The position numbers and the translations under genes are program-made. Shown in pieces: positions 2,817-32,162 of a stretch of DNA of 32,162 nt. Origin of the DNA: Cyanobacteria bacterium FACHB-63 (lineage in GTDB: Bacteria > Cyanobacteriota > Cyanobacteriia > Leptolyngbyales > Leptolyngbyaceae). Under the pieces are notes generated by a model, which searched no databases, was not told the origin of the DNA, and worked only from the letters and a program-made list of their open reading frames with translations. The stretch is taken from NCBI GenBank assembly GCA_014695255.1, contig JACJNX010000045.1, positions 1 through 32,162 of the forward strand, in the 5' to 3' direction. The number at the start of each line of letters is the position of its first letter. Position 1 is the first letter of the stretch.

Positions 2817-3389
2817 ATGGATACTCGGTTCTCTGCCTCGCTTGGCGTCGAAATTGTTGTTCCAGAGCAGCCTATTCATATTACAAATTATCTCCGGCAG
2901 CCTCAGCGAGTGGTGAATGCACTGGCAGCATCGAGTCAGATTGAGCTATTGGATGAAGAAATTTATCGGCTGAAGATGCGCCCATTAAGTTTTATGACGC
3001 TATCGATTCAGCCTGTCGTTGATATGCGAATTTGGGCAACTGAAACGGCGGCGATTAATTTACGATCGATTGCCTGCGAATTGCGCGGAATTGAGTATGA
3101 CCAGTTTTTACTCGACTTGCAGGGGCAGCTTTCTCCCTGTCAACAGCATGGCTTGACTTATTTGAGGGGACAGGCAGATTTAGCTGTTGAGGTTGAGCTT
3201 CCACCACCGTTTACCTTTATGCCTCGCCCCTTGATTGAAACGGCTGGAAATAGTTTGCTGCTGAGTGTTTTGTCCACCGTTAAGCAGCGTTTGCTCTACC
3301 AGTTGCTAGAAGACTACCGGAATTGGGTAGCGCTGCAAATGGAGACGAACACTCCAACTCATCCGATCGCGGTTAATCCTCTAAATTAA
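2817..3389 (+). CDS. DUF1997 family protein
   Basis: A soluble protein of 190 residues from the ATG at 2817; an in-frame TTG at 2799 would add six residues, and neither start has a good Shine-Dalgarno. The sequence matches the DUF1997 type shared by cyanobacteria and plastids: a beta-rich fold resembling lipid-binding START-like proteins, with LSIQPVVDM and a VEVELPPPF strand leading to a final helix (LLYQLLEDYRNWV). The function is unknown. The last 17 bp overlap the 3' end of rnhB on the other strand. Confidence 0.72.
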   Translation: MDTRFSASLGVEIVVPEQPIHITNYLRQPQRVVNALAASSQIELLDEEIYRLKMRPLSFMTLSIQPVVDMRIWATETAAINLRSIACELRGIEYDQFLLDLQGQLSPCQQHGLTYLRGQADLAVEVELPPPFTFMPRPLIETAGNSLLLSVLSTVKQRLLYQLLEDYRNWVALQMETNTPTHPIAVNPLN

Positions 3390-21038: not shown

Positions 21039-21143
21039 CGCAAAATTCCTAATAAAAAACCCTGATCCGAAGACCAGGGTAAATAATCAGGGTGCATCTA
21101 CCATTCCACTATTCCTAAAGTCAGAGAGTCATCCGGAGAAATT
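21039..21143. repeat. 105-bp tandem direct repeat, left copy
   Basis: First of two adjacent 105-bp copies, about 88% identical by eye with mostly transitions between them. Each copy contains a minus-strand terminator hairpin. Confidence 0.92.
21051..21080 (-). terminator. Duplicated terminator, distal copy
   Basis: Minus strand: ACCCTGGTC, TTCG, GATCAGGGT (21059-21080), followed by TTTTTATT. The base pair at the stem foot changed from G-C to A-T relative to the proximal copy, keeping the stem intact. Confidence 0.93.
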
Positions 21144-21248
21144 CGCAAAATTTCTAATAAAAAGCCCTGATCCGAAGACCAGGGCAAATAATCAGGGTGC
21201 ATCTACCACTCCACTATTCCCAGAGTTAGGGAGTTGTCCGGAAGAATT
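21144..21248. repeat. 105-bp tandem direct repeat, right copy
   Basis: Second copy, overlapping the last two bases of the DASH cryptochrome stop codon, so it is the first one met by that transcript. Confidence 0.92.
21156..21185 (-). terminator. Terminator of the DASH cryptochrome gene, proximal copy
   Basis: Minus strand: GCCCTGGTC, tetraloop TTCG, GATCAGGGC (9-bp stem, 21164-21185), followed by TTTTTATT. An upstream CCCTGAT on the same strand could compete for the 3' arm. Confidence 0.94.
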
Positions 21249-22876: not shown

Positions 22877-23176
22877 TTAGCTGACAAACACAGGAATACT
22901 GGCTAACACCGAAGCTAAAAGACTTGGAATCAATTGCATCGCGAACTGAAGCACAAAAATCGCCAAGATTGCCGAAAAATCAATCCCACCTAACGGCGGA
23001 ATAATGCGGCGGAAGAGATTCAAATACGGATCAGTCAACTGGCTTAACACTGCGAAGGGCTGTTTATACCAATCGATATTCGGAAACCAACTAAGCAAGA
23101 TCCGGATAATCAGCAATGCAAAGTAAATTCCTAGAAACTGATTGATCGTTGTAATAAGCAAAATCGCTGGATTCAT
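22877..23176 (-). CDS. YggT family (YlmG/CCB3-like) membrane protein
   Basis: A 99-residue protein with two hydrophobic segments (LLITTINQFLGIYFALLIIR and FSAILAIFVLQFAMQLIPSL) around a conserved middle, SWFPNIDWYKQPFAVLSQLTDPYLNLFRRIIPPLGGIDFS. WF-P near the first helix and DPYLxxFRRIIPPxGGxDFS define YggT. Homologues act in cytochrome b6 assembly in chloroplasts (CCB3) or in cell division/nucleoid organisation (YlmG). The ATG at 23176 has AAAGGA immediately upstream. It lies between a glycine-zipper protein gene and the cryptochrome gene. Confidence 0.92.
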   Translation of the reverse strand: MNPAILLITTINQFLGIYFALLIIRILLSWFPNIDWYKQPFAVLSQLTDPYLNLFRRIIPPLGGIDFSAILAIFVLQFAMQLIPSLLASVLASIPVFVS

Positions 23177-23273
23177 ATCCTTTCCGTTTCCTTCTAATGT
23201 AGGGATCTATGATTCACTCTCAGAACAGTTTAAGCGATCTTTTTTGTTCTTGTACTCTTGCTGCGGAAGCACG

Positions 23274-23603
23274 TCATTCTTCTCGAATAATTTCTCGCGC
23301 TCCAGGCAAATCGTTCTCAATGGCGCGTCCGTTCACGTTACCTAACTGTTGGCGCACATCATCGATCGCATCATTTAACTGAGCAATTTTATCCTCTAAA
23401 CCTCGACGCGCTAGCTCAATATTTTGTTCAGTCGAGGGACGCATCCGGCGTTTTGGCTTAGGCAGTTCTGATTTAGCTTGAGTGTCTTCGGTTTCTTCTG
23501 CAAATCGTTGCGCGGTGACGACCGAGCCGATAATCCCGCCGACAATGCCACCGACGATCGCCCCCAGAACAAATCCACCAGAAAAATTATCTTGTTGACT
23601 CAT
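23274..23603 (-). CDS. Small membrane-anchored protein with glycine zipper
   Basis: 109 residues from ATG 23603 (MSQQDNFSGG), with GAGG 12 nt upstream; an earlier TTG at 23621 is less likely. The N-terminal helix GFVLGAIVGGIVGGIIGSVV has glycine-zipper spacing like YtxH-type proteins, followed by a basic linker (PKPKRRMRP) and a helical C-terminal part (LARRGLEDKIAQLNDAIDDV). It probably has one membrane helix with a cytosolic coiled tail. Similar small proteins are common in cyanobacteria; the function is unknown. Confidence 0.75.
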   Translation of the reverse strand: MSQQDNFSGGFVLGAIVGGIVGGIIGSVVTAQRFAEETEDTQAKSELPKPKRRMRPSTEQNIELARRGLEDKIAQLNDAIDDVRQQLGNVNGRAIENDLPGAREIIREE

Positions 23604-23649
23604 ACGGCGATCGTTCCTCAAACTCTATAGACTTCTATTGTATCGATCC

Positions 23650-24300
23650 TCAAGTGCCAAAGATACGATCGCCCGCATCTCCCAATCCCGGCACAATGAA
23701 TCCGCGATCGTTCAGCACTTCATCAATTCCCGCCGTGTAAATCGTCAAACTCGGATAAGCCGCACCTAATTTTTGCAGGGCAGGTGGAGCCGCAACAACC
23801 GCAACAATTCGCACAAATGCTGGATCGATTCCGCGCTGAATCAATTCTTCCATCGCTCGAATTGAACTTCCACCGGTCGCCAGCATCGGATCAACGATCA
23901 ACACTCGCGTTTGCGAATCAAAGCGATCGGGCAATTTATTCAAGTAGCAACTCGCTTCGAGCGTTTCTTCATTCCGCACCAGTCCCAAATGATAAATCGA
24001 TGCCAACGGCAGTAAAGACTGTGCGCCACTGAGCAAACCAAGACCCGCTCGCAGAATCGGCACAATCACGATCGGAACTTCAGAATCGACAAAGGTTGCC
24101 GGACAGGGAGCGAGAGGCGTGTTGATCGTGGTGTCGATCGTCGGCAACCATTCGCGCACTGCTTCGTAAGTGAGCCACCGTCCTAATTCTGTGATTGCAC
24201 TGCGAAATATCATTGAGGGTGTTTCAGTATTCCGAGCGACACCAAGCCAATGTTTGATCAGGGGATGGGGTGGAACATACACACGCAGTTGCGGACTCAT
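23650..24300 (-). CDS. upp: Uracil phosphoribosyltransferase
   Basis: 216 residues; salvages uracil with PRPP to UMP. The PRPP-binding loop VLIVDPMLATGGS is clear, and the uracil-specificity end YTAGIDEVLNDRGFIVPGLGDAGDR is the family signature. The N-terminus RVYVPPHPLIKHWLGVARN is also typical of the cyanobacterial/plant form. The ATG at 24298-24300 overlaps the stop of a 39-codon upstream ORF (ATGA overlap). This is the last clearly chromosomal gene before the putative mobile element. Confidence 0.94.
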   Translation of the reverse strand: MSPQLRVYVPPHPLIKHWLGVARNTETPSMIFRSAITELGRWLTYEAVREWLPTIDTTINTPLAPCPATFVDSEVPIVIVPILRAGLGLLSGAQSLLPLASIYHLGLVRNEETLEASCYLNKLPDRFDSQTRVLIVDPMLATGGSSIRAMEELIQRGIDPAFVRIVAVVAAPPALQKLGAAYPSLTIYTAGIDEVLNDRGFIVPGLGDAGDRIFGT

Positions 24301-24416
24301 AAGCGCTTATCTTGAATAATCTGAATCATCATACTCCTTACTGCTTCAATATTTTCGGTGATAGGTTGAAAAATTGCGCGATCGTCGCCGCTAATTTTAT
24401 TGAAATAATTTCTCAT
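24297..24416 (-). CDS. Possible small ORF coupled to upp
   Basis: A 39-codon open frame from ATG 24416 (MRNYFNKISGDDRAIF...) to a TGA that overlaps the upp ATG by four bases, the usual sign of translational coupling. It has no good Shine-Dalgarno and I recognise no family. It could be a genuine leader peptide gene, the 3' remnant of a gene cut by the neighbouring element, or chance. The -35 box of the recombinase promoter lies only 6 bp away on the other strand. Confidence 0.3.
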   Translation of the reverse strand: MRNYFNKISGDDRAIFQPITENIEAVRSMMIQIIQDKRL

Positions 24417-24421
24417 TAGTG

Positions 24422-24451
24422 TTGACAAAGTTTTTCAACAAGCCGTATAGT
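24422..24451 (+). promoter_or_regulatory. Promoter of the serine recombinase
   Basis: TTGACA (24422-24427), 18-bp spacer, TATAGT (24446-24451). A palindrome TCCTC-TCTA-GAGGA follows at 24466-24479 and could be an operator just downstream of the start point. Confidence 0.7.
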
Positions 24452-24483
24452 AACTTTCAGTGTTCTCCTCTCTAGAGGATCTT

Positions 24484-24535
24484 GCACGGTGCGGTCAGGC
24501 AGTCATCTTGTGATATGGTGCCGATCGTACCGTGC
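24484..24535. repeat. Inverted repeat before the recombinase (operator or att candidate)
   Basis: GCACGGT (24484-24490) and ACCGTGC (24529-24535) are perfect inverted copies 38 bp apart, just before the recombinase ATG. They could be an operator or part of a crossover site. Confidence 0.4.
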
Positions 24536-24548
24536 TTTCTGACTCTTC

Positions 24549-25976
24549 ATGACGACGGAATTTCACAACATTGGCTACGGCAGGATCAGCCAACTGGATT
24601 ACGGACGAAGAATCTCGCACACCGAGCTGGACGTTGCAGCGAAGCAGCAGAAGAGTCGCTTAGAGCGTGCTGGCTGTACGGAGATCTACTTTGATTTACA
24701 GCCGGGCAGCGATGATGACCGCCCGAACTTTGAACGCTTAATGAATCGAATGAAGGCGAAGGAGCGCGTCGACCGAGTGACCATCACTCGAGATGATCGA
24801 ATTACTCGCTCGCCGCAAATGACGCTCGATCTAATAGAAGTCTTTCTCAAGCAGAATATCGAGCTCGTAATTCTCGATATGGGCGACAATCCAATCGATT
24901 TAAGTAACCCTTACCAGTGGAAGCAGCGCGTCCAAGCAGGGCTCGATGCAGCGTTTGAAATTCGGATGTTGGGTATGCGAATTCGGCGCGGATATGAGTA
25001 TTTCCGTCAGATGCAGAAAGCGAATCCCGCCGTGCCGTTTGGGTATCGGCGCTCAGCAGCAGGCAAGTATGAAGCCGACCCGAATGAGTGGGAGATGGCG
25101 CAGACGATTGTTAAGACGTTCTTCGAGTGCCGATCGCTCAGTAAAACCAGTCTATTAATCAAGCAGCAGTACGGCAGAGATATCACCCGGACGACGCTGC
25201 GGCACTGGTTACGCAATCAGGTGTTACAGGGCAACACGCCGTATAAGTTCGATGAGAAAACGCGCGAACCGACTGAGATCGTGTACGGAACACATACGGA
25301 CATTCTGATTAGTCCGGAGCAGGCTCTATTAATTAATGAGATCTGTCGTGAGAATCGCAAGTTAGGCGGCAAGCGGCACAACATTCCGTATCCGCTAGGA
25401 AGTGGACTGTGCCGCTGTCGTAAGTGCGGCGCGACGATGGGTGTGAGGAAATTAATTAAATCAGAGCCGGACGAGTTGGTTTACACGCTGCGCTGTAACA
25501 GTAACTCCAAATCGGCTTCAATCTGTGACTTTGGGTCTGAGCCGCGCTCATTTACGATCGAGCCTCACGTGATTGCCGCTCTTACCGAGAAGGCAGCGAC
25601 GATTGCTGAGCTCGCGATTGGAGAAGTGAGGCGGCGTGAATCTCCCGAGTTAAGTGCCTTGCGAGCACAACGTTCGCAACTGCTGGCGATTCCTGGGAAT
25701 AATCCGGCGATTCTTGATGCGATAGAGAAAGTGGACGCTCAGATTAAATCTCTTGAAACGGCTGACGAGCAGACTCAGATTGTGACAAACTACGCCGGTG
25801 AGTCGTTCAGGTCGTTGAGTCATATTTACCGGATGCCTGAGTATTGGCAGAGATTAGACCCGGCGGTGAAGCGGCAGCTATTCAGGCAGTTCGCGGATGT
25901 CGTTTGGATTTCGGCTGTAAAGATTCCAGGGAGTCGACTGATGAATTATCGAGTTGAGGTTGTGCTCCGGTTCTGA
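24549..25976 (+). CDS. Large serine recombinase (XisF/integrase-like)
   Basis: 475 residues. The N-terminal catalytic domain has YGRIS (10-14) with probable nucleophile S14 and R12, RPNFERLM (58-65) and RDDRITRS (81-88) with the catalytic arginines. A recombinase domain follows (GYRR..., near 165-230). A zinc ribbon with Cys 288, 290, 293, 316 and 326 and a coiled-coil stretch (about 370-410) come next, the standard large-serine-recombinase order. Size and style resemble cyanobacterial XisF, which excises a DNA element. It lies at the putative left end of the element, so it probably integrates and excises it. ATG 24549 has no clear Shine-Dalgarno. Confidence 0.9.
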   Translation: MTTEFHNIGYGRISQLDYGRRISHTELDVAAKQQKSRLERAGCTEIYFDLQPGSDDDRPNFERLMNRMKAKERVDRVTITRDDRITRSPQMTLDLIEVFLKQNIELVILDMGDNPIDLSNPYQWKQRVQAGLDAAFEIRMLGMRIRRGYEYFRQMQKANPAVPFGYRRSAAGKYEADPNEWEMAQTIVKTFFECRSLSKTSLLIKQQYGRDITRTTLRHWLRNQVLQGNTPYKFDEKTREPTEIVYGTHTDILISPEQALLINEICRENRKLGGKRHNIPYPLGSGLCRCRKCGATMGVRKLIKSEPDELVYTLRCNSNSKSASICDFGSEPRSFTIEPHVIAALTEKAATIAELAIGEVRRRESPELSALRAQRSQLLAIPGNNPAILDAIEKVDAQIKSLETADEQTQIVTNYAGESFRSLSHIYRMPEYWQRLDPAVKRQLFRQFADVVWISAVKIPGSRLMNYRVEVVLRF

Positions 25977-25980
25977 GTGA

Positions 25981-26139
25981 GATCAGAGCGCGACGGTAAC
26001 AGCGCTCACACGGGATACCATCTCGCTGAGTTTCGCAGGTTTCACGTCCGAGAGTGACGGCGCGATCGAATTCAAGGGCAGTGTCGAGCAGGAGCTTACG
26101 GGTCGAATCTTCGAGCATGACTTTTCAGGTGGTGAATAA
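25981..26139 (+). pseudogene. Possible 3' remnant of a gene
   Basis: An open + frame of about 52 codons with no start codon, ending TAA at 26137-26139 four bases before a terminator. It reads like a beta-rich protein end (TISLSFAGFTSES, then DGAIEFKGSVEQEL, ending FSGGE). Placement of the stop against a terminator suggests the end of a former gene whose 5' part was lost. A minus-strand frame of 78 codons (26118 to 25882) overlaps the same bases and is the competing reading. Confidence 0.3.
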
Positions 26140-26142
26140 GAA

Positions 26143-26177
26143 AAAAGCCGCTCCCGGTTGACGGGTGAGCGGCTTTT
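26143..26177. terminator. Bidirectional terminator
   Basis: AAAAGCCGCTC (26143-26153) pairs with GAGCGGCTTTT (26167-26177). U-runs are present on both strands. Confidence 0.9.
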
Positions 26178-26356
26178 GTTTGTACGTGTTTGGAATGGAC
26201 GTGGGATTGAGTTAGTCTTTACCGAGTTCAAAGCATCTCAGTTGAACTTGACATACTTCAAAACTCCTAAAGAACTCAACAGACAACTACGATCGATCAC
26301 ACTCGATCGATCAGTCGAAACATCATAAGAAATATTGATCGTTAAACCAGTACCCA

Positions 26357-26390
26357 AACTTGGCAATAGCTTAGAATAACTTGGTATACT
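26357..26390 (+). promoter_or_regulatory. RHH gene promoter with direct-repeat operator
   Basis: Extended -10 TGGTATACT (TATACT at 26385-26390). AACTTGG occurs at 26357-26363 and again at 26378-26384, exactly 21 bp apart (two helical turns), covering the -35 region and abutting the -10. This suits autorepression by a ribbon-helix-helix protein. Confidence 0.6.
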
Positions 26391-26417
26391 GGATGTAATA
26401 CGTTTCGGGAATAAATC

Positions 26418-26651
26418 ATGCGAGTGAAGCAGAAAAATCAGAAGCGAGTGAAAGGTGTTCCTGTCCAGTGGGAAGAAGTCAAGGTTCAGAAAATGATTGG
26501 ACTGACACCGACCGTTTGGCAGCTAATCGATGCACGAGCCGCCGAACTCAACCTCAGCCGTTCTGAGCTAGTCGAGCGGACGTTTCGAGGCTTGATCACT
26601 TGGACAGAATTCGATAGCACACTCCTGAACAGCCAAGACAATCAATCATAG
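26418..26651 (+). CDS. Ribbon-helix-helix DNA-binding regulator (CopG-like)
   Basis: 77 residues. A basic N-terminus (KQKNQKRVKG) is followed by an RHH fold: strand KVQKMIGL (22-29), helix A TVWQLIDARAAEL (32-44), turn NLSRS, helix B SELVERTFRGLI (49-60). It probably dimerises and binds the paired AACTTGG repeats in its own promoter. Located directly before the replicase-like gene, it may control copy number or replication, as CopG does in the pMV158 plasmid family. Start ATG 26418 follows GGGA. Confidence 0.75.
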   Translation: MRVKQKNQKRVKGVPVQWEEVKVQKMIGLTPTVWQLIDARAAELNLSRSELVERTFRGLITWTEFDSTLLNSQDNQS

Positions 26652-26666
26652 ATTCGGGTCTAAAGC

Positions 26667-26696
26667 AAAAACCCCGCGAGCGGCAAACTCACAGGG
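26667..26696 (-). terminator. Minus-strand-specific terminator antisense to the rep leader
   Basis: Minus strand: CCCTGTGAG (26688-26696), loop TTTGCCG, CTCGCGGGG (26672-26680), with two G-U pairs, then TTTTTG. On the plus strand the G-U pairs become C-A mismatches and no U-run follows, so it works in one direction only. No minus-strand gene lies upstream of it, which points to an antisense RNA against the rep leader. Confidence 0.7.
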
Positions 26697-26699
26697 ATT

Positions 26700-26821
26700 T
26701 CAAATATCACAGACCAGTCACTTCATCGAATTTAGCTTGTACGCACTAGCTGAGTTCGCTACCCGAAAGGGTTTCAGCAACTGACCGATTACCTCAATTC
26801 CTCAATTACCTTAATTTTAAC
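26700..26821. ncRNA. Rep leader with possible antisense RNA
   Basis: Contains ACCC-GAAA-GGGT (26761-26772) inside an outer GCTGA/TCAGC stem (26750-26754/26774-26778) and three tandem copies of a CCTYAATT motif (26792-26816) right before the rep ATG, which lacks a Shine-Dalgarno. A minus-strand transcript ending at the neighbouring terminator would form the complementary stem-loop. I could not find a convincing minus-strand promoter, so this is a proposal. Confidence 0.35.
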
Positions 26822-29176
26822 ATGACTAACCTGGCGATTCCAGTCCAAGAGCCCGCTAAGCCAAGACTCGAGATTAAAGCTCCAACTAACTCGCTGGCAT
26901 TCCTGATCTATCAAGACCAGTCTGAGGCAGCACAGGAAGCCTTCAGGAAGCACAACGAGAAACGCAAGAGCGAACCGAAAAAGGAGCCCAAAGGTTACAT
27001 CCGCAAATTCGTTCCCGGCTCGAAGCTCGTCTTAGATATCATCGACCGCATCTCGACCGAGAAGAAGTTGAGCAAAGAAGCCCGTCGCCTATATTGTCAC
27101 CTCTTGCACTGCTCCAATCTGCTCGAAGTGGACGCTGAAGAGTACGTTGTGATCTCAGCAGATCTGGTTAATAAGGTATTAGGCAGTCCAGCCCATAACG
27201 AGCTGATCGAGTCGGGTCTGGTGGACTTCACCGCGGAGAAACCCTTAGACGGCAAGTGCCGCACCTATAAGATCCTCGATCAGCACGCAGACGAAATCTA
27301 TCAGGCGCAATACCAGAGCCTTCTAGAAGACGATCTCGATCCGATATACAACCTGGTGACTGGCAAGCAGGCGAAGTATCGCCCCTCTCAGCGGTACAAC
27401 ACCAGCCGCAACGAGATTCCAGATCTGCTGCTACGGTCGTACGACAACATCACTATCTGCGCGTTTAACAAGCGCCAGGTCAAGCGGCATTTTGCTGAGA
27501 CCTACCCAGAGATGCCAAAGCGAGGCTCGAAAGAGGCGCGGACGCTGCAAGTCGATAAGTATTGCTTCGATATGACGCGAGCGCAGGAGTGCCGCCGACT
27601 CTCAGGTGATATCTGGTGTTACCGTCCCAGCTTCGAGCCCCAGAGTACCGGTCGAATCACCGAGCGCGGCGGGTTTCAAAGCTGTACTACGGAAATGAAG
27701 CAAGCGGCATTCTACGGCATTCGTGATGTCTTCAACTTCGATATGCGATCGAGCCAGCCAAATCTGTTGATCATTCTGCTTGAGAGAGCAGGGCTCGATT
27801 CAAGCTGGCTGAGGGAGTACATCTCGAACAAAGACAACAAGTTTATCTATGCCGAGCGCGCCGGTCTTCTGGTTGGGGCTTGGAAGAAGTGTTTACTCGC
27901 AGCGATTATGGGCAGTCCCTTCCCAACCAAGAAGCAGCGAAACAACCCAGGAAACGGATATAGCAGCATTGCAGATTACGTCTGGGAAGCGGTCGCAGCC
28001 GATAAGGATGCAAAGTACCTAGTGACGCTTGGGAAGCTTCAGAAGGTGCTACAGCCGTTGCTTAAAGTGATGGCTCAGTGGCACAAGCTGCTGATCGAAG
28101 ACGCCAAACAAAATCCTTTCCAGGTAGGCAAGGAGTATTTCGTCCGTAACGAAGCGGGTTGCGTCTTCCCGCTGAAAGACTACCTGAACGAGCAAGGCGA
28201 GCTGATAAACAAGGAAGAACTGAAACGCCGCCTAGCAGCATTCCACCTGCAAGGCATGGAGGCTCTAATCGTTCACACGCTGACCGGGTTAGCCGAGGAA
28301 TTCGGCTTCCGCGTCCTGAGCAACCAGCACGACGGCTTGGTCGTACTAGGGCGCATACCCGACGCAGCGGTACAGCGGACACTCGAGATCACAGGAATCC
28401 CCACGGAGCGCGTCGCGTTCGACAAGAAGGATCTCTGCGACGAGCTACCCGATTGGCTACGGAACGAAACCGACACCGACACCGACATCGAAGCGGCGCT
28501 CAAGGCGCTTTTCAACGCAGAGAACCCCGGAAACCCCGGCGGACTGAAACCCAGCCAACCAACGGGAGAAGGAACAGGGGAAGAACAGGGAAGAAAGGCA
28601 CAGGAAAGAAGGAACAAAGAGGGAGAACCAAGGGAGAACAACCGGAAGAACGCCCAGGGAACAACCGCACAACACCCACCAAGCATTAGTACATCGTACA
28701 TAATGGCTACACCCCCCGCCACCACAGGGTTAGAACCCGATTCATTTTTTCGTTCAGGAAGTGGGCCCGCTTCTGGTGACAGCGCTGATGTGCTGCTGAA
28801 GGTCGAGGCGTTCGTGGGTGGAAGGGGGTACGTTTCTGTCCAAGATGTCGCGGCTGAACTTGGTCTCTCGGAGCGTAAAGCAGGCTCGGCTCTCAAACAA
28901 TTAGGTTGGGAACGCGGACGCAAGCGGATCAACAGTAAGCATGTGTGGTTCTACTTCGCGCCTCAACCGACCACAGAACAGGCTCCTGAGCCTCAGCCAG
29001 CAGCCTCGAAGCCCAAGGCTAAGTCAAAGGCTCAGCCCAAGCCCGCGCCTGCTCCTGAGCTTGCTGAGCCCGAATCAAAGTCCACTGGACTCGGTAACGA
29101 TGGCGGCGCGTTTCGGAGATTGATCGAGCAGGCGATGGCGATGAACGACTCTCAATCCGATCGAGCTAGCGCCTAG
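26822..29176 (+). CDS. Replicase-like protein with family-A polymerase palm
   Basis: 784 residues. N-terminal part (about 60-155) looks like a winged helix (SKEARRLYCHLLHCSN ... LIESGLVDF). The core (about 270-515) follows the order of family-A polymerases: TGR (276-278), motif A NFDMRSSQ (305-312, D307), a motif B-like GAWKKCLLAAIMG (352-364), a QG helix (LAAFHLQGMEALIVHTLTGL, 471-490) and motif C NQHDGL (501-506, D504). Both metal-binding aspartates are kept; the usual Glu after HD is Gly, and the motif B Tyr is Met. No 3'-5' exonuclease motifs are seen. A disordered linker (about 550-650) leads to a C-terminal winged helix (658-712) and an Ala/Pro/Lys-rich tail. It probably replicates the element, as a DNA polymerase or primase; an RNA polymerase role is not excluded. 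Confidence 0.7.
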   Translation: MTNLAIPVQEPAKPRLEIKAPTNSLAFLIYQDQSEAAQEAFRKHNEKRKSEPKKEPKGYIRKFVPGSKLVLDIIDRISTEKKLSKEARRLYCHLLHCSNLLEVDAEEYVVISADLVNKVLGSPAHNELIESGLVDFTAEKPLDGKCRTYKILDQHADEIYQAQYQSLLEDDLDPIYNLVTGKQAKYRPSQRYNTSRNEIPDLLLRSYDNITICAFNKRQVKRHFAETYPEMPKRGSKEARTLQVDKYCFDMTRAQECRRLSGDIWCYRPSFEPQSTGRITERGGFQSCTTEMKQAAFYGIRDVFNFDMRSSQPNLLIILLERAGLDSSWLREYISNKDNKFIYAERAGLLVGAWKKCLLAAIMGSPFPTKKQRNNPGNGYSSIADYVWEAVAADKDAKYLVTLGKLQKVLQPLLKVMAQWHKLLIEDAKQNPFQVGKEYFVRNEAGCVFPLKDYLNEQGELINKEELKRRLAAFHLQGMEALIVHTLTGLAEEFGFRVLSNQHDGLVVLGRIPDAAVQRTLEITGIPTERVAFDKKDLCDELPDWLRNETDTDTDIEAALKALFNAENPGNPGGLKPSQPTGEGTGEEQGRKAQERRNKEGEPRENNRKNAQGTTAQHPPSISTSYIMATPPATTGLEPDSFFRSGSGPASGDSADVLLKVEAFVGGRGYVSVQDVAAELGLSERKAGSALKQLGWERGRKRINSKHVWFYFAPQPTTEQAPEPQPAASKPKAKSKAQPKPAPAPELAEPESKSTGLGNDGGAFRRLIEQAMAMNDSQSDRASA

Positions 29177-29184
29177 CCGTCTAC

Positions 29185-29216
29185 GCGGCGCTGCGGCTGA
29201 TCTGCTGTGGCGCCGC
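29185..29216. repeat. GC-rich inverted repeat after rep
   Basis: GCGGCGC (29185-29191) and GCGCCGC (29210-29216), perfect arms with an 18-base loop and no U-run. It may be a weak terminator or an origin-associated structure. Confidence 0.45.
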
Positions 29217-29333
29217 TATTCCCAGCAAACTCTAAGGACAATATAAAGTCTGTACAAAGAAGTATGCGTGAAGGTCTTCGTTAGAAAAGACTACTGGTTA
29301 AGATCTCAGGGCTCTCAATTCACCTGTAAGTCA

Positions 29334-29702
29334 ATGCTCAAATTACTCATCCCGGTTGCTTTCTCTTGTCTGACCTCTTTTTCGTTCGTCTTGCCAGTCG
29401 GTGCTCAAACCAGTCCGCCTGGATTTCGAGTGACTGAAAACGCGATCAACATGGCGCGGCACTTTCTTGAAAAGTCCAACAACTTCACCAGTAAGCTCGA
29501 TGATGACCAAATCAGTCGCGCGCTCGAATTCTACTGTGAGGTGCGTTCCGGTGGTGTCAGGGATAGAGACTTTGAATTCATCACGTCTCAGCAGCTCGCA
29601 TTGACTATACCTCGCAATCGTCAGCAAGATTGGCGGCATTTCTTTGGAGTTGTAAGCACCACGGCGCAGGAGTTAGTTTGTCCAGAATACAGAGATCGCT
29701 AA
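29334..29702 (+). CDS. Small secreted protein, DUF732-like pattern
   Basis: From ATG 29334 the protein has 122 residues with a Sec signal peptide (MLKLLIPVAFSCLTSFSFVL) and probable cleavage after VGA. The frame is open back to GTG 29268, but that would bury the signal. The mature part has helices around ARHFLEKSNNF, ISRALEFYCEVRSG and FFGVVSTTAQELVCPEY, with one Cys in each of the last two. This spacing resembles small actinobacterial secreted DUF732 proteins, where the two Cys form a disulfide; the link is my inference. A TATAAA at 29242-29247 may be its promoter -10. The function is unknown. Confidence 0.6.
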   Translation: MLKLLIPVAFSCLTSFSFVLPVGAQTSPPGFRVTENAINMARHFLEKSNNFTSKLDDDQISRALEFYCEVRSGGVRDRDFEFITSQQLALTIPRNRQQDWRHFFGVVSTTAQELVCPEYRDR

Positions 29703-29711
29703 AACCTGTGA

Positions 29712-29837
29712 TCAGTCGTCTCATGCAACAAGCGTAAAACGATCAACCACGGCAAAAATATCGAGTGGTTCGAGCCCTATCGCGAACAAGGATTAGATGT
29801 AGTAGTTCACGCCATGAACGACGACAGATTGATCTAA
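29712..29837 (+). pseudogene. Possible gene fragment
   Basis: A start-less frame of about 41 codons reading ...NIEWFEPYREQGLDVVVHAM and ending NDDRLI-stop. The residue mix is protein-like, with codons unlike random sequence, but I recognise no family. It could be a decayed 3' end of an accessory gene. Confidence 0.25.
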
Positions 29838-29854
29838 TTGGTGCCAAATTAGCA

Positions 29855-29902
29855 ACCCTACCGCCTCCTCAAAAACCAGTAAAAACGGGGAGGCGGTGGG
29901 GT
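29855..29902 (+). terminator. Long GC-rich hairpin, probable terminator
   Basis: Arms ACCCTACCGCCTCC (29855-29868) and GGAGGCGGTGGGGT (29889-29902) make a 14-bp stem with one G-U pair and a 20-base A-rich loop, followed shortly by GTTTTCTT. It could also be an origin structure. Confidence 0.6.
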
Positions 29903-30084
29903 ATCGTTTTCTTGATATATCTACGTTTCAGCGGTGTTTGATCTCCTATGGGGTTAGGGATTTTGTCTTCGCCGCCGCCCCCCAAGACCAGCACGGTTAA
30001 CGAGAGCGGCGCGCCCCTTTCGCACACCTGCATCTACTCCTTTAGACGTAGAGTCGGTGATTATGCGTCACAAATCTACCGCCG

Positions 30085-30222
30085 ATGTATCGCCGTCTTT
30101 TGCTGATCGTTTTGCTGGCCGCGCTTCTGCTTGCAAGTATCGCCGGCTTCCGACTGCTTCAGAGGGTCGTATCCTCGCTCAATCCGGCCACCTTCATGCA
30201 GCCGCCGGATTACGATGTATAG
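30085..30222 (+). CDS. Small single-TM protein (45 residues)
   Basis: A short ORF starting MYRRLLLIVLLAALLLASIA and ending PPDYDV. A positively charged start leads into a strong hydrophobic helix (residues 5-20), then a basic/amphipathic middle (FRLLQRVVSSLNP) and an acidic end. This is the form of a membrane-inserted small protein or an uncleaved signal anchor. It has no clear Shine-Dalgarno, and its G+C is higher than its surroundings. No homology is recognised; small element-encoded membrane proteins include toxins, lysis and entry-exclusion proteins, but nothing here decides among them. Confidence 0.45.
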   Translation: MYRRLLLIVLLAALLLASIAGFRLLQRVVSSLNPATFMQPPDYDV

Positions 30223-30407
30223 CGCCCGCTAGATCGATCGAATCACGTAATGCTTGATCGATCAAGAACAGTCAAAAAGTACAATCAACTTTTTACTAGA
30301 ACTGGTAAAACGAAAGCCGCCCATGACAATGAGTCTAGGGCGGCTTTTTAATGGCTTAGCAGACCGAGCGGATTGAGGGCTCTAGGCGCGATCATCGCTG
30401 TACTCCG
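30223..30407. other. Intergenic region with GATCGATC repeats and terminator
   Basis: Contains GATCGATCGAATCA and GATCGATCAAGA (about 30233-30261), an imperfect inverted repeat TTTTACtagaactgGTAAAA (about 30290-30310) and the terminator at 30313-30349. No gene. Confidence 0.5.
30313..30349. terminator. Bidirectional terminator downstream of the second RHH gene
   Basis: AAAGCCGCCC (30313-30322) pairs with GGGCGGCTTT (30338-30347), followed by TT on + and by TTTCGTTTT on the minus strand. It serves the minus-strand RHH gene and any + transcript. Confidence 0.88.
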
Positions 30408-30650
30408 TTAATCTTCTGTGCTGAATTCCGCCTGGTAGCGGTCTACCAACGCTCGATACTCCTCAAGCTTCGTCGGATTTTCTAATTCCCAGCGATCCGA
30501 GCCTTCTCGGATGTAGCGCTCCAATTGCGCTGTGTCACTACGATCCTCAAGGACTGATATTGCTTTCAATCGCGCTAGAAGCTCGTAATTGATTTTGTAA
30601 TTGACCCGTTTCGCGGGCTTCTTTTGCCTACCCACTGTTGCAGTCGTCAT
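30408..30650 (-). CDS. Ribbon-helix-helix protein, second copy (plasmid regulator-like)
   Basis: 80 residues. RHH fold: strand KRVNYKIN (14-21), helix A ELLARLKAISVLED (23-36), helix B TAQLERYIREGS (40-51), then an acidic helical tail (KLEEYRALVDRYQAEFSTED). The strong Shine-Dalgarno AAGGAG lies just before ATG 30650. The upstream region has four degenerate AATCGTAT-type repeats (30671-30736) that this protein could bind. No toxin gene partner is seen next to it, so a plasmid-type repressor fits better than an antitoxin. Confidence 0.75.
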   Translation of the reverse strand: MTTATVGRQKKPAKRVNYKINYELLARLKAISVLEDRSDTAQLERYIREGSDRWELENPTKLEEYRALVDRYQAEFSTED

Positions 30651-30670
30651 CTAAGGACTCCTTTTTATTC

Positions 30671-30736
30671 AACCGTACATCTGTCAATATTACATACTAT
30701 TTTCTCAATCGTATATATTGTTATGTAATCGTATGT
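30671..30736. repeat. Four degenerate AATCGTAT-type direct repeats
   Basis: AACCGTACAT (30671), AATATTACAT (30686), AATCGTATAT (30707) and AATCGTATGT (30727); the last three are spaced 21 and 20 bp. They lie in an AT-rich divergent control region and may be RHH operators or iterons. Confidence 0.55.
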
Positions 30737-30743
30737 ACGCTAC

Positions 30744-30749
30744 TATAAA
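30744..30749 (+). promoter_or_regulatory. Possible -10 box of the downstream coiled-coil gene
   Basis: TATAAA at 30744-30749, with no well-spaced -35; the palindromes at 30759-30811 would lie in the leader. Confidence 0.35.
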
Positions 30750-30758
30750 ACTGAAGCA

Positions 30759-30811
30759 AAACCGAGAACTCGGTTTTAGAACCAGTTCTGAACCAGGTTG
30801 GAACTGGTTCG
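30759..30811. repeat. Palindrome cluster (operator or origin candidate)
   Basis: A perfect palindrome AAAACCGAG-AA-CTCGGTTTT (30759-30778) is followed by AACCAGTTC ... GAACTGGTT (9-bp arms, 12-bp spacer, about 30780-30809) with an interleaved GAACCAG ... CTGGTTC pair. CCAGGTT recurs at 30825. The density of overlapping inverted repeats is unusual for this window. Confidence 0.65.
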
Positions 30812-30882
30812 AACCTAGGCACAACCAGGTTTAGCTACAGGTGTAATTGAGACTCAAATCTTTGAAAACTGGAGGAAACTTT

Positions 30883-31647
30883 ATGACCAACAAAACGACT
30901 GTATCGCCCGATATGCCTGAGTTTGAGCGTTTGAAACTAGAGGAAACCAGAGAACGACTGATGAAAACTTACACCACACTCGATGGAACTGAAGTGAGTC
31001 TTGACGAAACTGGAATCGAACCCGAGAAAACCGCAGGAAAACCGGCGAGAGAACTGGACAAAACTGGAGTCACTTTTCCCGCCAGTTTTAACGATGTGGC
31101 TGAGGGAATGAAGCGGAACGGGTTCGTTTGTAACGGCAACACCTTGAAGGGATCTTGGATGAATAAGTACATCCGACCTGCCTATGAGGGTGTCGATTGC
31201 CCCGAGATCCAAGACGCGAAAGGTCGCGTTACCGAGTTCGGATTCGACGCGATTGGTGAAGTGATCGACCGCTGCATCCAAGGCGAGAATGGTCAGAAGA
31301 TCGCGGTCGAAACGCTGCGTGAGGAGTTACTCGAGCGGTACGGCGGGAAGCCGGTTAAAGACAGTCTGTCAATTGCTCAGCAAATTTTGGAAAAGGCGAA
31401 GAGCAAGCGGGATGAAGCCGAGCAAGCCAAGCAAACCTCGGCACTCGTCAAACAAGAAGCCAAATCACAGCTTGAATTGCTTCAAGAGGCGATTGAGGCT
31501 CTGAAAGAATCTCACGACGACGATGTGTCGATCATGGAGCTAACCGAGGAAGAAAAGGCTCGCATCATGCAGGAAGAACTAGCGAAGCATTTAGCCGCTG
31601 AGCAGTACCGGCAAGAAGTCAGGCAGCAACTAAAAAAGAACAAGTAA
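30883..31647 (+). CDS. Unknown coiled-coil accessory protein
   Basis: 254 residues from ATG 30883, which has GGAGG at a good distance; an upstream TTG-type start at 30847 would read through that site. The first 60 residues are acidic and rich in Glu/Thr. A compact middle domain (about 64-135: FNDVAEGMKRNGFVCNGNTL, SWMNKYIRPAYEG, FGFDAIGEVIDRCIQG) may be helix-turn-helix-like. From 160 on it is highly charged and coiled-coil-forming (ILEKAKSKRDEAEQAKQTSA, LLQEAIEALKESHDDD, KARIMQEELAKHLAAE) with a basic end. Context beside an RHH gene and repeats suggests a partition or replication helper, but this is only inference. Confidence 0.6.
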   Translation: MTNKTTVSPDMPEFERLKLEETRERLMKTYTTLDGTEVSLDETGIEPEKTAGKPARELDKTGVTFPASFNDVAEGMKRNGFVCNGNTLKGSWMNKYIRPAYEGVDCPEIQDAKGRVTEFGFDAIGEVIDRCIQGENGQKIAVETLREELLERYGGKPVKDSLSIAQQILEKAKSKRDEAEQAKQTSALVKQEAKSQLELLQEAIEALKESHDDDVSIMELTEEEKARIMQEELAKHLAAEQYRQEVRQQLKKNK

Positions 31648-31718
31648 CCGTCGCCTCGTTTCTAAAGCGACTACTGAGACAACTGTTTTATGCCTGCTGC
31701 TTTTTTCTGTGAAGTCCG

Positions 31719-31739
31719 CCCCGCTGTAACGCGGGGTTT
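31719..31739 (+). terminator. Probable terminator after the coiled-coil gene
   Basis: CCCCGC (31719-31724), loop TGTAAC, GCGGGG (31731-31736), followed by TTTCCT. The U-run is short. Confidence 0.6.
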
Positions 31740-31755
31740 CCTATTGGAGTTGCCA

Positions 31756-32162
31756 ATGCTCAAGTTGATCAAGTGCAACGTCTCTGAGACCACCTTGCTT
31801 CAATGGAAGCTCGCTTGGTACAAATCGCATTTGAGGAAGAATCTGGCAAGACCCGCGCCACTATATCGCGTAGCGTTTGATCGCCGTTTGCGCCAATTAG
31901 ATTGGTTAAGCGCGCTTATTTTCAACAGCCTCAGAGTTGGCTTGGAAATCACCGCCGCGGACAAGTTTGGATACACAAACCAGATCGATACTCACGTCTT
32001 CGTCCGAGTCTGGCGTGACCCAGTGGATCAGCATCGGCTCCATGTCTGGTTAAACGAGAGCTCCCTCTTGTTCTCGCTCTCTCAAGAATCAATTCCTGCT
32101 TTAGTCGAGACGATCCGTTCTGAGCTAAGCGAGGCTTTCGAGGGATGGGTTACTGAGTATAA
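31756..32162 (+). CDS. Open gene running off the right edge, unknown
   Basis: ATG 31756, with GGAG seven bases upstream, opens a frame with no stop to the last base (135 codons so far). It begins MLKLIKCNVSETTLLQWKLA and contains many aromatic and charged residues (WYKSHLRKNL, LDWLSALIFNSLRVGLEITA, VFVRVWRDPVDQHRLHVWLN, then ETIRSELSEAFEGWVTEY). It has alternating strand/helix character, no signal peptide and no membrane helix. I recognise no family. It follows the coiled-coil gene by about 110 bp with a terminator between. Confidence 0.6.
   Translation, partial: MLKLIKCNVSETTLLQWKLAWYKSHLRKNLARPAPLYRVAFDRRLRQLDWLSALIFNSLRVGLEITAADKFGYTNQIDTHVFVRVWRDPVDQHRLHVWLNESSLLFSLSQESIPALVETIRSELSEAFEGWVTEY

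Follow-up and report, generated by a model that had tools for sequence, protein, structure and literature searches.

Integrated element and predicted polymerase gene

The window, by which the whole stretch of DNA analysed is meant (32,162 nucleotides, contig JACJNX010000045.1 of Cyanobacteria bacterium FACHB-63), ends inside an integrated element. The presence of such an element, assumed in the initial annotation, was borne out by a left junction at position 24481 and by 14-bp direct repeats at both junctions. The left copy of the attachment core, CTCTCTAGAGGATC, occupies positions 24468-24481 on the + strand, and the right copy was found on another contig of the host genome (G000:C135:5563-5576), which carries the right half of the empty site. 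When positions 22877-24700 were aligned to seven genomes of the same genus, homology stopped at 24481 (query base 1605) in four of them and at query bases 1603 and 1602 in two more; in the seventh genome, G386, the alignment stopped at 1486, and bases 1522-1605 matched on another of its contigs. Four loci that were aligned directly all ended at 24481. The contig ends at 32162; 7.7 kb of the element lie here and at most 5.6 kb lie at the beginning of C135, and the middle of the element may be missing.

The first gene of the element (24549-25976, + strand) encodes an XisF-like large serine recombinase (Pfam Resolvase, 6e-17; Recombinase, 1.8e-5) and starts 67 bases inside the element from the junction. 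The recombinase scored 342.5 bits against the NCBIfam model XisF, below the cut-off of 375. The attachment site (24398-24481, and around 3050-3150 of locus L086) is conserved across cyanobacterial families and may be a gene for a small RNA that the element has interrupted. It has a sigma-70-like promoter (11/12), but 0.8 are expected by chance, and neither a terminator by scan nor an Rfam family was found at the site. By eye, the empty site shows a hairpin-like tail with a T-run. No helicase was recognised in the window genes that were scanned with Pfam. An 80-aa protein encoded at 30408-30650 (- strand) has a sub-threshold match to the antitoxin CcdA, and the scan of window genes brought up no partner toxin. 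A reading as a defence system was not supported: five window proteins had no match in PADLOC. Elsewhere in the window, the - strand carries NsiR1 (Rfam RF02399, a nitrogen-stress-induced RNA) twice in tandem, at 21052-21103 and 21156-21208; the pair sits in a 105-bp tandem repeat and adjoins a gene that by eye resembles photolyase/cryptochrome.

Positions 26822-29176 (+ strand) hold a single intact, unannotated open reading frame for a protein of 784 amino acids which, judged from the reading frame, its relatives, a structural model and a fold search, is a predicted TV-Pol-like family-A polymerase. The motif-bearing interval 27647-28351 corresponds to residues 276-510 of this protein. In the host genome the gene is single-copy, and the ordinary PolA is encoded by a separate gene elsewhere.

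Motifs of the predicted polymerase

All motifs read in the initial annotation lie where it had placed them, and its numbering of D307 and D504 is right. On the + strand these are TGR (residues 276-278; 27647-27655) with the beta-hairpin arginine R278; motif A, FDMRSSQ (residues 306-312; 27737-27757), with the predicted catalytic D307 and, at D+5, Q312 in the position of the sugar-gate Glu of Pol I; motif B in the fingers helix, KKCLLAAIMG (residues 355-364; 27884-27913), running from K355 to G364; a QG-E-A helix, QGMEA (residues 477-481; 28250-28264), which hhalign pairs with the Q-G/S helix of PolA; and motif C, NQHDGL (residues 501-506; 28322-28339), a strand-turn-strand with the predicted catalytic D504. 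A spacing similar to that of Pol I had also been claimed, which held for G478 and D504, 26 positions apart and thus about as claimed, but not for R278 and D307, where the distance is 29 and not 26. In T7 gp5 the Arg precedes the motif A Asp by 46 positions, and the Ser of its LQS precedes the motif C Asp by 39; with 29 against 46 positions, the R278-D307 spacing is therefore shorter than, and not similar to, that of T7 gp5.

By searches of Pfam, PHROGs, NCBIfam and PADLOC, the window protein matched no polymerase model, a weak helix-turn-helix (HTH) being the only hit, and searches of the PDB by sequence and by profile gave nothing useful. Seven family members gave chance-level matches or unnamed families in Pfam and PHROGs; PF00476 (DNA_pol_A) was not matched above its gathering score in any of the seven, and no nuclease domain was recognised in them by Pfam. 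As had been noted initially, no exonuclease domain was recognised in the 784-aa protein.

Predicted fold and kinship

A model of residues 77-545 was computed with AlphaFold2 from 12 sequences (pLDDT 84.7, pTM 0.82). Motif A is located at a strand end, strands 497-502 and 505-509 flank H503-D504, and D307 and D504 are both at strand ends or turns in the secondary structure of the model. The beta-hairpin is preceded by helices 201-209, 217-227 and 237-254, candidates for the two-helix coiled-coil thumb of TV-Pol. Foldseek returned 554 matches in the PDB at E <= 10, 96 of which were at E <= 0.001. The 50 matches listed (of 554) are all family-A DNA polymerases by title and include Pol I fragments, Taq, T7 gp5, Pol theta and the apicoplast polymerase as well as two chains titled just T7 replisome; among them the best E-value is 7e-6 and the query TM-scores are modest (0.33-0.45). 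In a viral fold library, uncharacterised Dickeya and Erwinia phage proteins are among the first ranks (best TM 0.60), phage PolAs and the replication proteins of the Zamilon and Qinghai Lake virophages follow further down, and the list also contains an origin-binding-domain protein of Pyramimonas orientalis virus, a giant-virus match, and, at rank 49, a protein called RNA polymerase.

A 20-row alignment, made of 17 family members and three diverged proteins (MAP_030 of Microcystis phage Ma-LMM01 and two Polaromonas plasmid proteins), was used for profile comparison. Its profile scored 29.4 against PolA (33 rows), with a maximum of 21.7 in 60 column shuffles (0/60 as high) and 20.0 for the reversed alignment, and the match was in register for GR, motif A, the fingers Lys, the Q-G/S helix and motif C. 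Against T7-type RNA polymerases (8 rows) the score was 23.8, and one of 60 shuffles was as high. With the 17 family rows alone, hhalign gave a weak match to PolA (P 0.033) and P 0.2 for the RNA polymerases. Run in global mode, hhalign aligned only the sequence ends in all four pairs of profiles. The kinship with PolA therefore rests on the model and the diverged intermediates, not on the sequences of the family alone. Taken with the family-A titles of all 50 PDB matches listed, the in-register profile match upholds the family-A-type palm proposed initially, for which the support is as good as a prediction can provide. With good confidence the protein is predicted to have a palm-fingers fold, in which D307 and D504 are the metal ligands and K355 is the fingers lysine, and to have no exonuclease.

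N- and C-terminal domains

Winged helices had been expected on both sides of the palm; the N-terminal one is supported as a predicted topology, and the C-terminal one corresponds to a sub-threshold match. In a model of residues 57-266 (pLDDT 78.3), residues 68-151 (27023-27274, + strand) have the winged-helix-like order H-H-strand-H-H-strand-strand. None of the PDB matches to this domain reached E <= 0.001. By their titles, the 50 listed are mostly winged-helix regulators, MarR-type and similar, and four are N-domain chains of plasmid replication initiators, namely 4pql A, 4pql B, 4pt7 and 5kbj (prob 0.57-0.87, E 0.1-0.33). The N-terminal winged helix is predicted, with good confidence, to stand in place of the N-terminal domains of Pol I. 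Origin binding by the window protein is plausible. At the other end of the protein, residues 669-694 (28826-28903, + strand) contain a weak HTH that matches Pfam HTH_36 with an E-value of 6e-4 and 19.9 bits, below the cut-off of 25. A tblastn search of 23 DNA sources turned up no relative of the C-terminal tail, and the HTH was seen in the window protein alone.

Conservation and selection

In the 20-row alignment D307, K355, H503, D504, G505, Q286 and E480 are invariant (20/20), Q477 and G478 are each present in 19 rows and R278 in 18, the exceptions being Gly in two Vibrio phage rows. The replacement of the HDE Glu and the motif B Tyr, also pointed out initially, extends through the family: HDG is found in 20/20 rows, and the O-helix Tyr position is taken by Met, Leu, Phe or Ile in 16 of the 17 family rows. 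The two Polaromonas plasmid proteins retain Tyr in motif B. A fingers Arg at -4 from K355 was found in 0/20 rows, MAP_030 and the Polaromonas proteins included. The residue at D+5 is Gln in all 17 family rows and His in all three diverged rows, and motif A reads D..[SA]SQ in the window family versus D..(N/K)CH in the Polaromonas and Ma-LMM01 proteins.

Codon changes among relatives are purifying. By a simple counting method, dN/dS was 0.117, 0.055 and 0.132 for three of four pairs of relatives, the 0.132 pair being near saturation (dS 3.1), and the fourth pair was saturated. Because of the invariant residues and the low dN/dS, we regard the motifs as those of a real protein family under constraint and not as chance motifs. 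In a tree of the 20 proteins the window protein is a long branch with no supported neighbours. The placement of the three diverged proteins on one side is weakly supported (76/78).

Relatives and their genomic contexts

Relatives are encoded by cyanobacterial prophages and plasmids and by large Vibrio and Erwinia phages, diverged ones by Polaromonas plasmids and Microcystis phage Ma-LMM01. Matches were found in 6 of 386 genomes of the phylum, the host genome included, with a single protein as query and likewise with a 12-row profile. The 72,556 plasmid records contained two, Calothrix NIES-4105 plasmid6 (13.7 kb) and Synechocystis B12 (33 kb), and the match in the latter spans two annotated pieces. 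From 50,697 phage records, one match was obtained with the window protein and 14 with a Vibrio phage protein as query; a cyanobacterial relative retrieved 26 at E <= 10, chiefly from Erwinia, Dickeya and Vibrio phages, some of which are surely due to chance at such a threshold. IMG/VR yielded eight loci and the GTDB contigs six, several of them being one sequence seen twice. On one IMG/VR contig (L016, 7920-9476) a stop splits the relative of the polymerase gene into two adjacent open frames. Further viral scans with the window, Vibrio phage and pH8NP1 proteins as queries revealed no relatives. In Ma-LMM01, MAP_030 adjoins transposase genes and is the sole match to the family HMM among 29 ORFs of >300 aa (99 kb of the 162-kb phage scanned); used as a query, it led to the two Polaromonas plasmid proteins, pH8NP1 and pW9NP1. 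The family HMM scores were 65.9 bits for MAP_030, 72.9 for pH8NP1 and 73.2 for pW9NP1 (about 66-76 overall).

Homologues of serine recombinases or tyrosine integrases are present in 12 of 23 DNA sources, six with each type, where the serine recombinases counted are relatives of those used as queries; a phage terminase was found in five of the 23 sources searched. In a survey of neighbours, 53 of 99 ORFs were scanned with Pfam, and one was a relative of the polymerase itself. Polymerases, DnaB and DnaG are absent from the 25 families listed of 118, in which DUF3987 and RuvB occur once each, and 19 neighbour proteins looked at singly comprised no replication gene. In phages L014 and L015 the gene is part of a replication block that also encodes a DnaG/TOPRIM-type protein, a DnaB-type helicase and a PolA bearing exonuclease and intein domains; the genes of L014 were scanned for domains and those of L015 match them. 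Both Polaromonas plasmids carry a gene annotated as RepA (Pfam RepA_C was tested for pH8NP1), and RepA is treated as the Rep in the description of the plasmids (PMC6015842). Because of the PolA, DnaB- and DnaG-like genes of L014 and L015 and the RepA of the Polaromonas plasmids, the polymerase need be neither the main polymerase nor the sole initiator.

As a side observation, the phage PolA of L014 (12759-15806), a few genes from the TV-Pol-like gene, has a match to an intein-splicing domain between its exonuclease and polymerase parts. The Calothrix plasmid (13.7 kb) has no recognisable Rep among seven further ORFs scanned with Pfam; one of the seven is HerA-like, just below the cut-off. A protein encoded there upstream of the polymerase (L003, 11550-12317) looks by eye like winged-helix repeats and recalls the C-terminal HTH of the window protein; it has no convincing family match and no sequence match.

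Comparison with known polymerases

A distinct replication system had been envisaged initially. It is not wholly distinct, as TV-Pols ("transposon-virus polymerases"), predicted primase-polymerases, were described by Iyer, Abhiman and Aravind in 2008 (PMC2579912), and the kind is already known, close to the TV-Pol group; what stands is that the branch differs in several features. It is marked by the predicted winged helix at the N-terminus, a Gln (residue 312) in the sugar-gate position, the lack of a fingers Arg and HDG instead of HDE. The features given as defining TV-Pols are a thumb of two helices, two Asp, an Arg in the hairpin and RxxxK in the fingers, and Ma-LMM01 is named, with no gene name, as the bearer of a TV-Pol-containing integrated element (PMC2579912). 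Because that phage is named, MAP_030 is very probably its TV-Pol. The window family resembles TV-Pols in its minimal family-A palm with two Asp (20/20) and a hairpin Arg (18/20), in having no nuclease and in being carried on elements that also encode serine recombinases, integrases or transposases or that have phage genes. Unlike in TV-Pols, RxxxK is absent from the fingers (Lys in 20/20, Arg at -4 in 0/20, in the register used here), the window protein has an N-terminal winged helix and no D5 helicase was recognised in the window. Since the Arg of RxxxK is absent in all 20 rows, the window protein is called TV-Pol-like here and is not filed as a TV-Pol member.

CCPol-MP is a family-A polymerase of SCCmec, a serine-recombinase element, and makes dNTP primers with its partner MP (PMC7581432, PMC10061031). 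Like CCPol-MP, a proven primase-polymerase that uses dNTPs, and like the PolA-SSB primases, the window protein has a predicted family-A palm and is encoded on an integrated element driven by a serine recombinase. Those of the published enzymes that have a full polymerase domain also retain a 3'-5' exonuclease, whole or in part, and are accompanied by a helicase and by the gene for an OB-fold partner. In contrast, the window protein has a winged helix, and neither an OB-fold partner nor a helicase was recognised in the window part of the element. A further likeness exists to the phage polymerase divPolA2, a family-A palm enzyme in which an unrelated globular domain at the N-terminus takes the place of the thumb and which occurs beside a regular polymerase (PMC11348598). 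Its representative AUR84708 gave no sequence match (0.4 and -2.1 bits). Literature searches, which covered open-licence papers, brought up work on TV-Pols, PolA-SSB primases and divPolA1/2 (PMC11348598, PMC11188092, PMC7824862), and none of the papers listed describes the present branch in its title or abstract.

With Pol I and T7 gp5 the window family has in common the predicted fold and the motif order GR, Q, motif A, Lys...Gly, Q-G/S helix and motif C, but it has no exonuclease, HDG and not HDE, Gln in place of the gate Glu and no Arg before the Lys. T7-like RNA polymerases share the palm fold and likewise have the fingers Lys...Gly; T7 RNA polymerase differs by Gly at D+5 and HDS in motif C, versus Gln/His and HDG, and by the weaker profile match. 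At D+5, T7 gp5 has Glu, as read in the alignment. The sugar-gate Glu of Pol I keeps out ribonucleotides, and a Gln, which has the same length, should still exclude ribose.

Function and significance

On balance we favour, with modest confidence, an element-encoded TV-Pol-like family-A polymerase, probably a primase-polymerase, that helps to replicate the excised element. The serine recombinase would excise the element as a circle, the polymerase would load on element DNA via its winged helix and would make or extend a primer with dNTPs, so helping to copy the element, and host proteins would supply the helicase and bulk synthesis. By analogy to CCPol-MP on SCCmec, which is a tested precedent, the most likely role of the window protein is priming of element DNA, its extension, or both.

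Instead of making primers or acting as a replicase, the enzyme could serve the element or phage in repair or gap filling, as an accessory polymerase of the sort proposed for divPolA2; we consider this rather unlikely. The presence of an ordinary PolA and of a DnaG-like gene next to it in L014 and L015 and the sporadic distribution (6/386 genomes of the phylum, including the host) would fit such a role, as would the reading of divPolA2 as a repair/gap-filling enzyme or as an RNA polymerase (PMC11348598), but on the small Calothrix plasmid no other replication gene was recognised among the seven ORFs scanned, and no nuclease domain was recognised in the polymerase.

It is unlikely that one polypeptide combines origin recognition through winged helices, synthesis of its own DNA primer and extension, with a family-A palm and a Gln sugar gate, and represents an unannotated replication-protein family across cyanobacterial plasmids, prophages and large phages. 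Less probable again is a single-protein replicase whose winged helices bind the origin of the element and whose palm starts synthesis there. The winged-helix order of the N-domain, the initiator N-domains 4pql, 4pt7 and 5kbj in its PDB list and the second, weak HTH at the C-terminus point in this direction, but the N-domain matches listed are mostly ordinary MarR-type and similar regulators, the C-terminal HTH is confined to the window protein, other Rep- or primase-like genes lie beside some relatives, and no iteron-like repeats were found in 24301-32162, where the one direct-repeat family is a 17-bp pair 976 bases apart. A T7-type single-subunit RNA polymerase, transcribing or RNA-priming element DNA, is very unlikely: hhalign pairs motif B with that of the T7 RNA polymerase profile, one viral fold match listed (rank 49) is called an RNA polymerase and T7-like enzymes share the palm, but shuffled profiles reached the RNA polymerase score in 1/60 cases versus 0/60 for PolA, 50/50 PDB matches listed are DNA polymerases, and Gly at D+5 with HDS stands against Gln in 17/17 with HDG.

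As putative primase-polymerases, the members of the family are compact candidates, some of them on small cyanobacterial replicons, for asking whether a family-A palm starts DNA without a partner, and they let the effect of Gln or His at the sugar gate be asked. For the Calothrix plasmid, in which no Rep was recognised among the scanned ORFs, the polymerase is a possible Rep. A role in replication would give a function to genes that are called hypothetical in plasmids and large phages.
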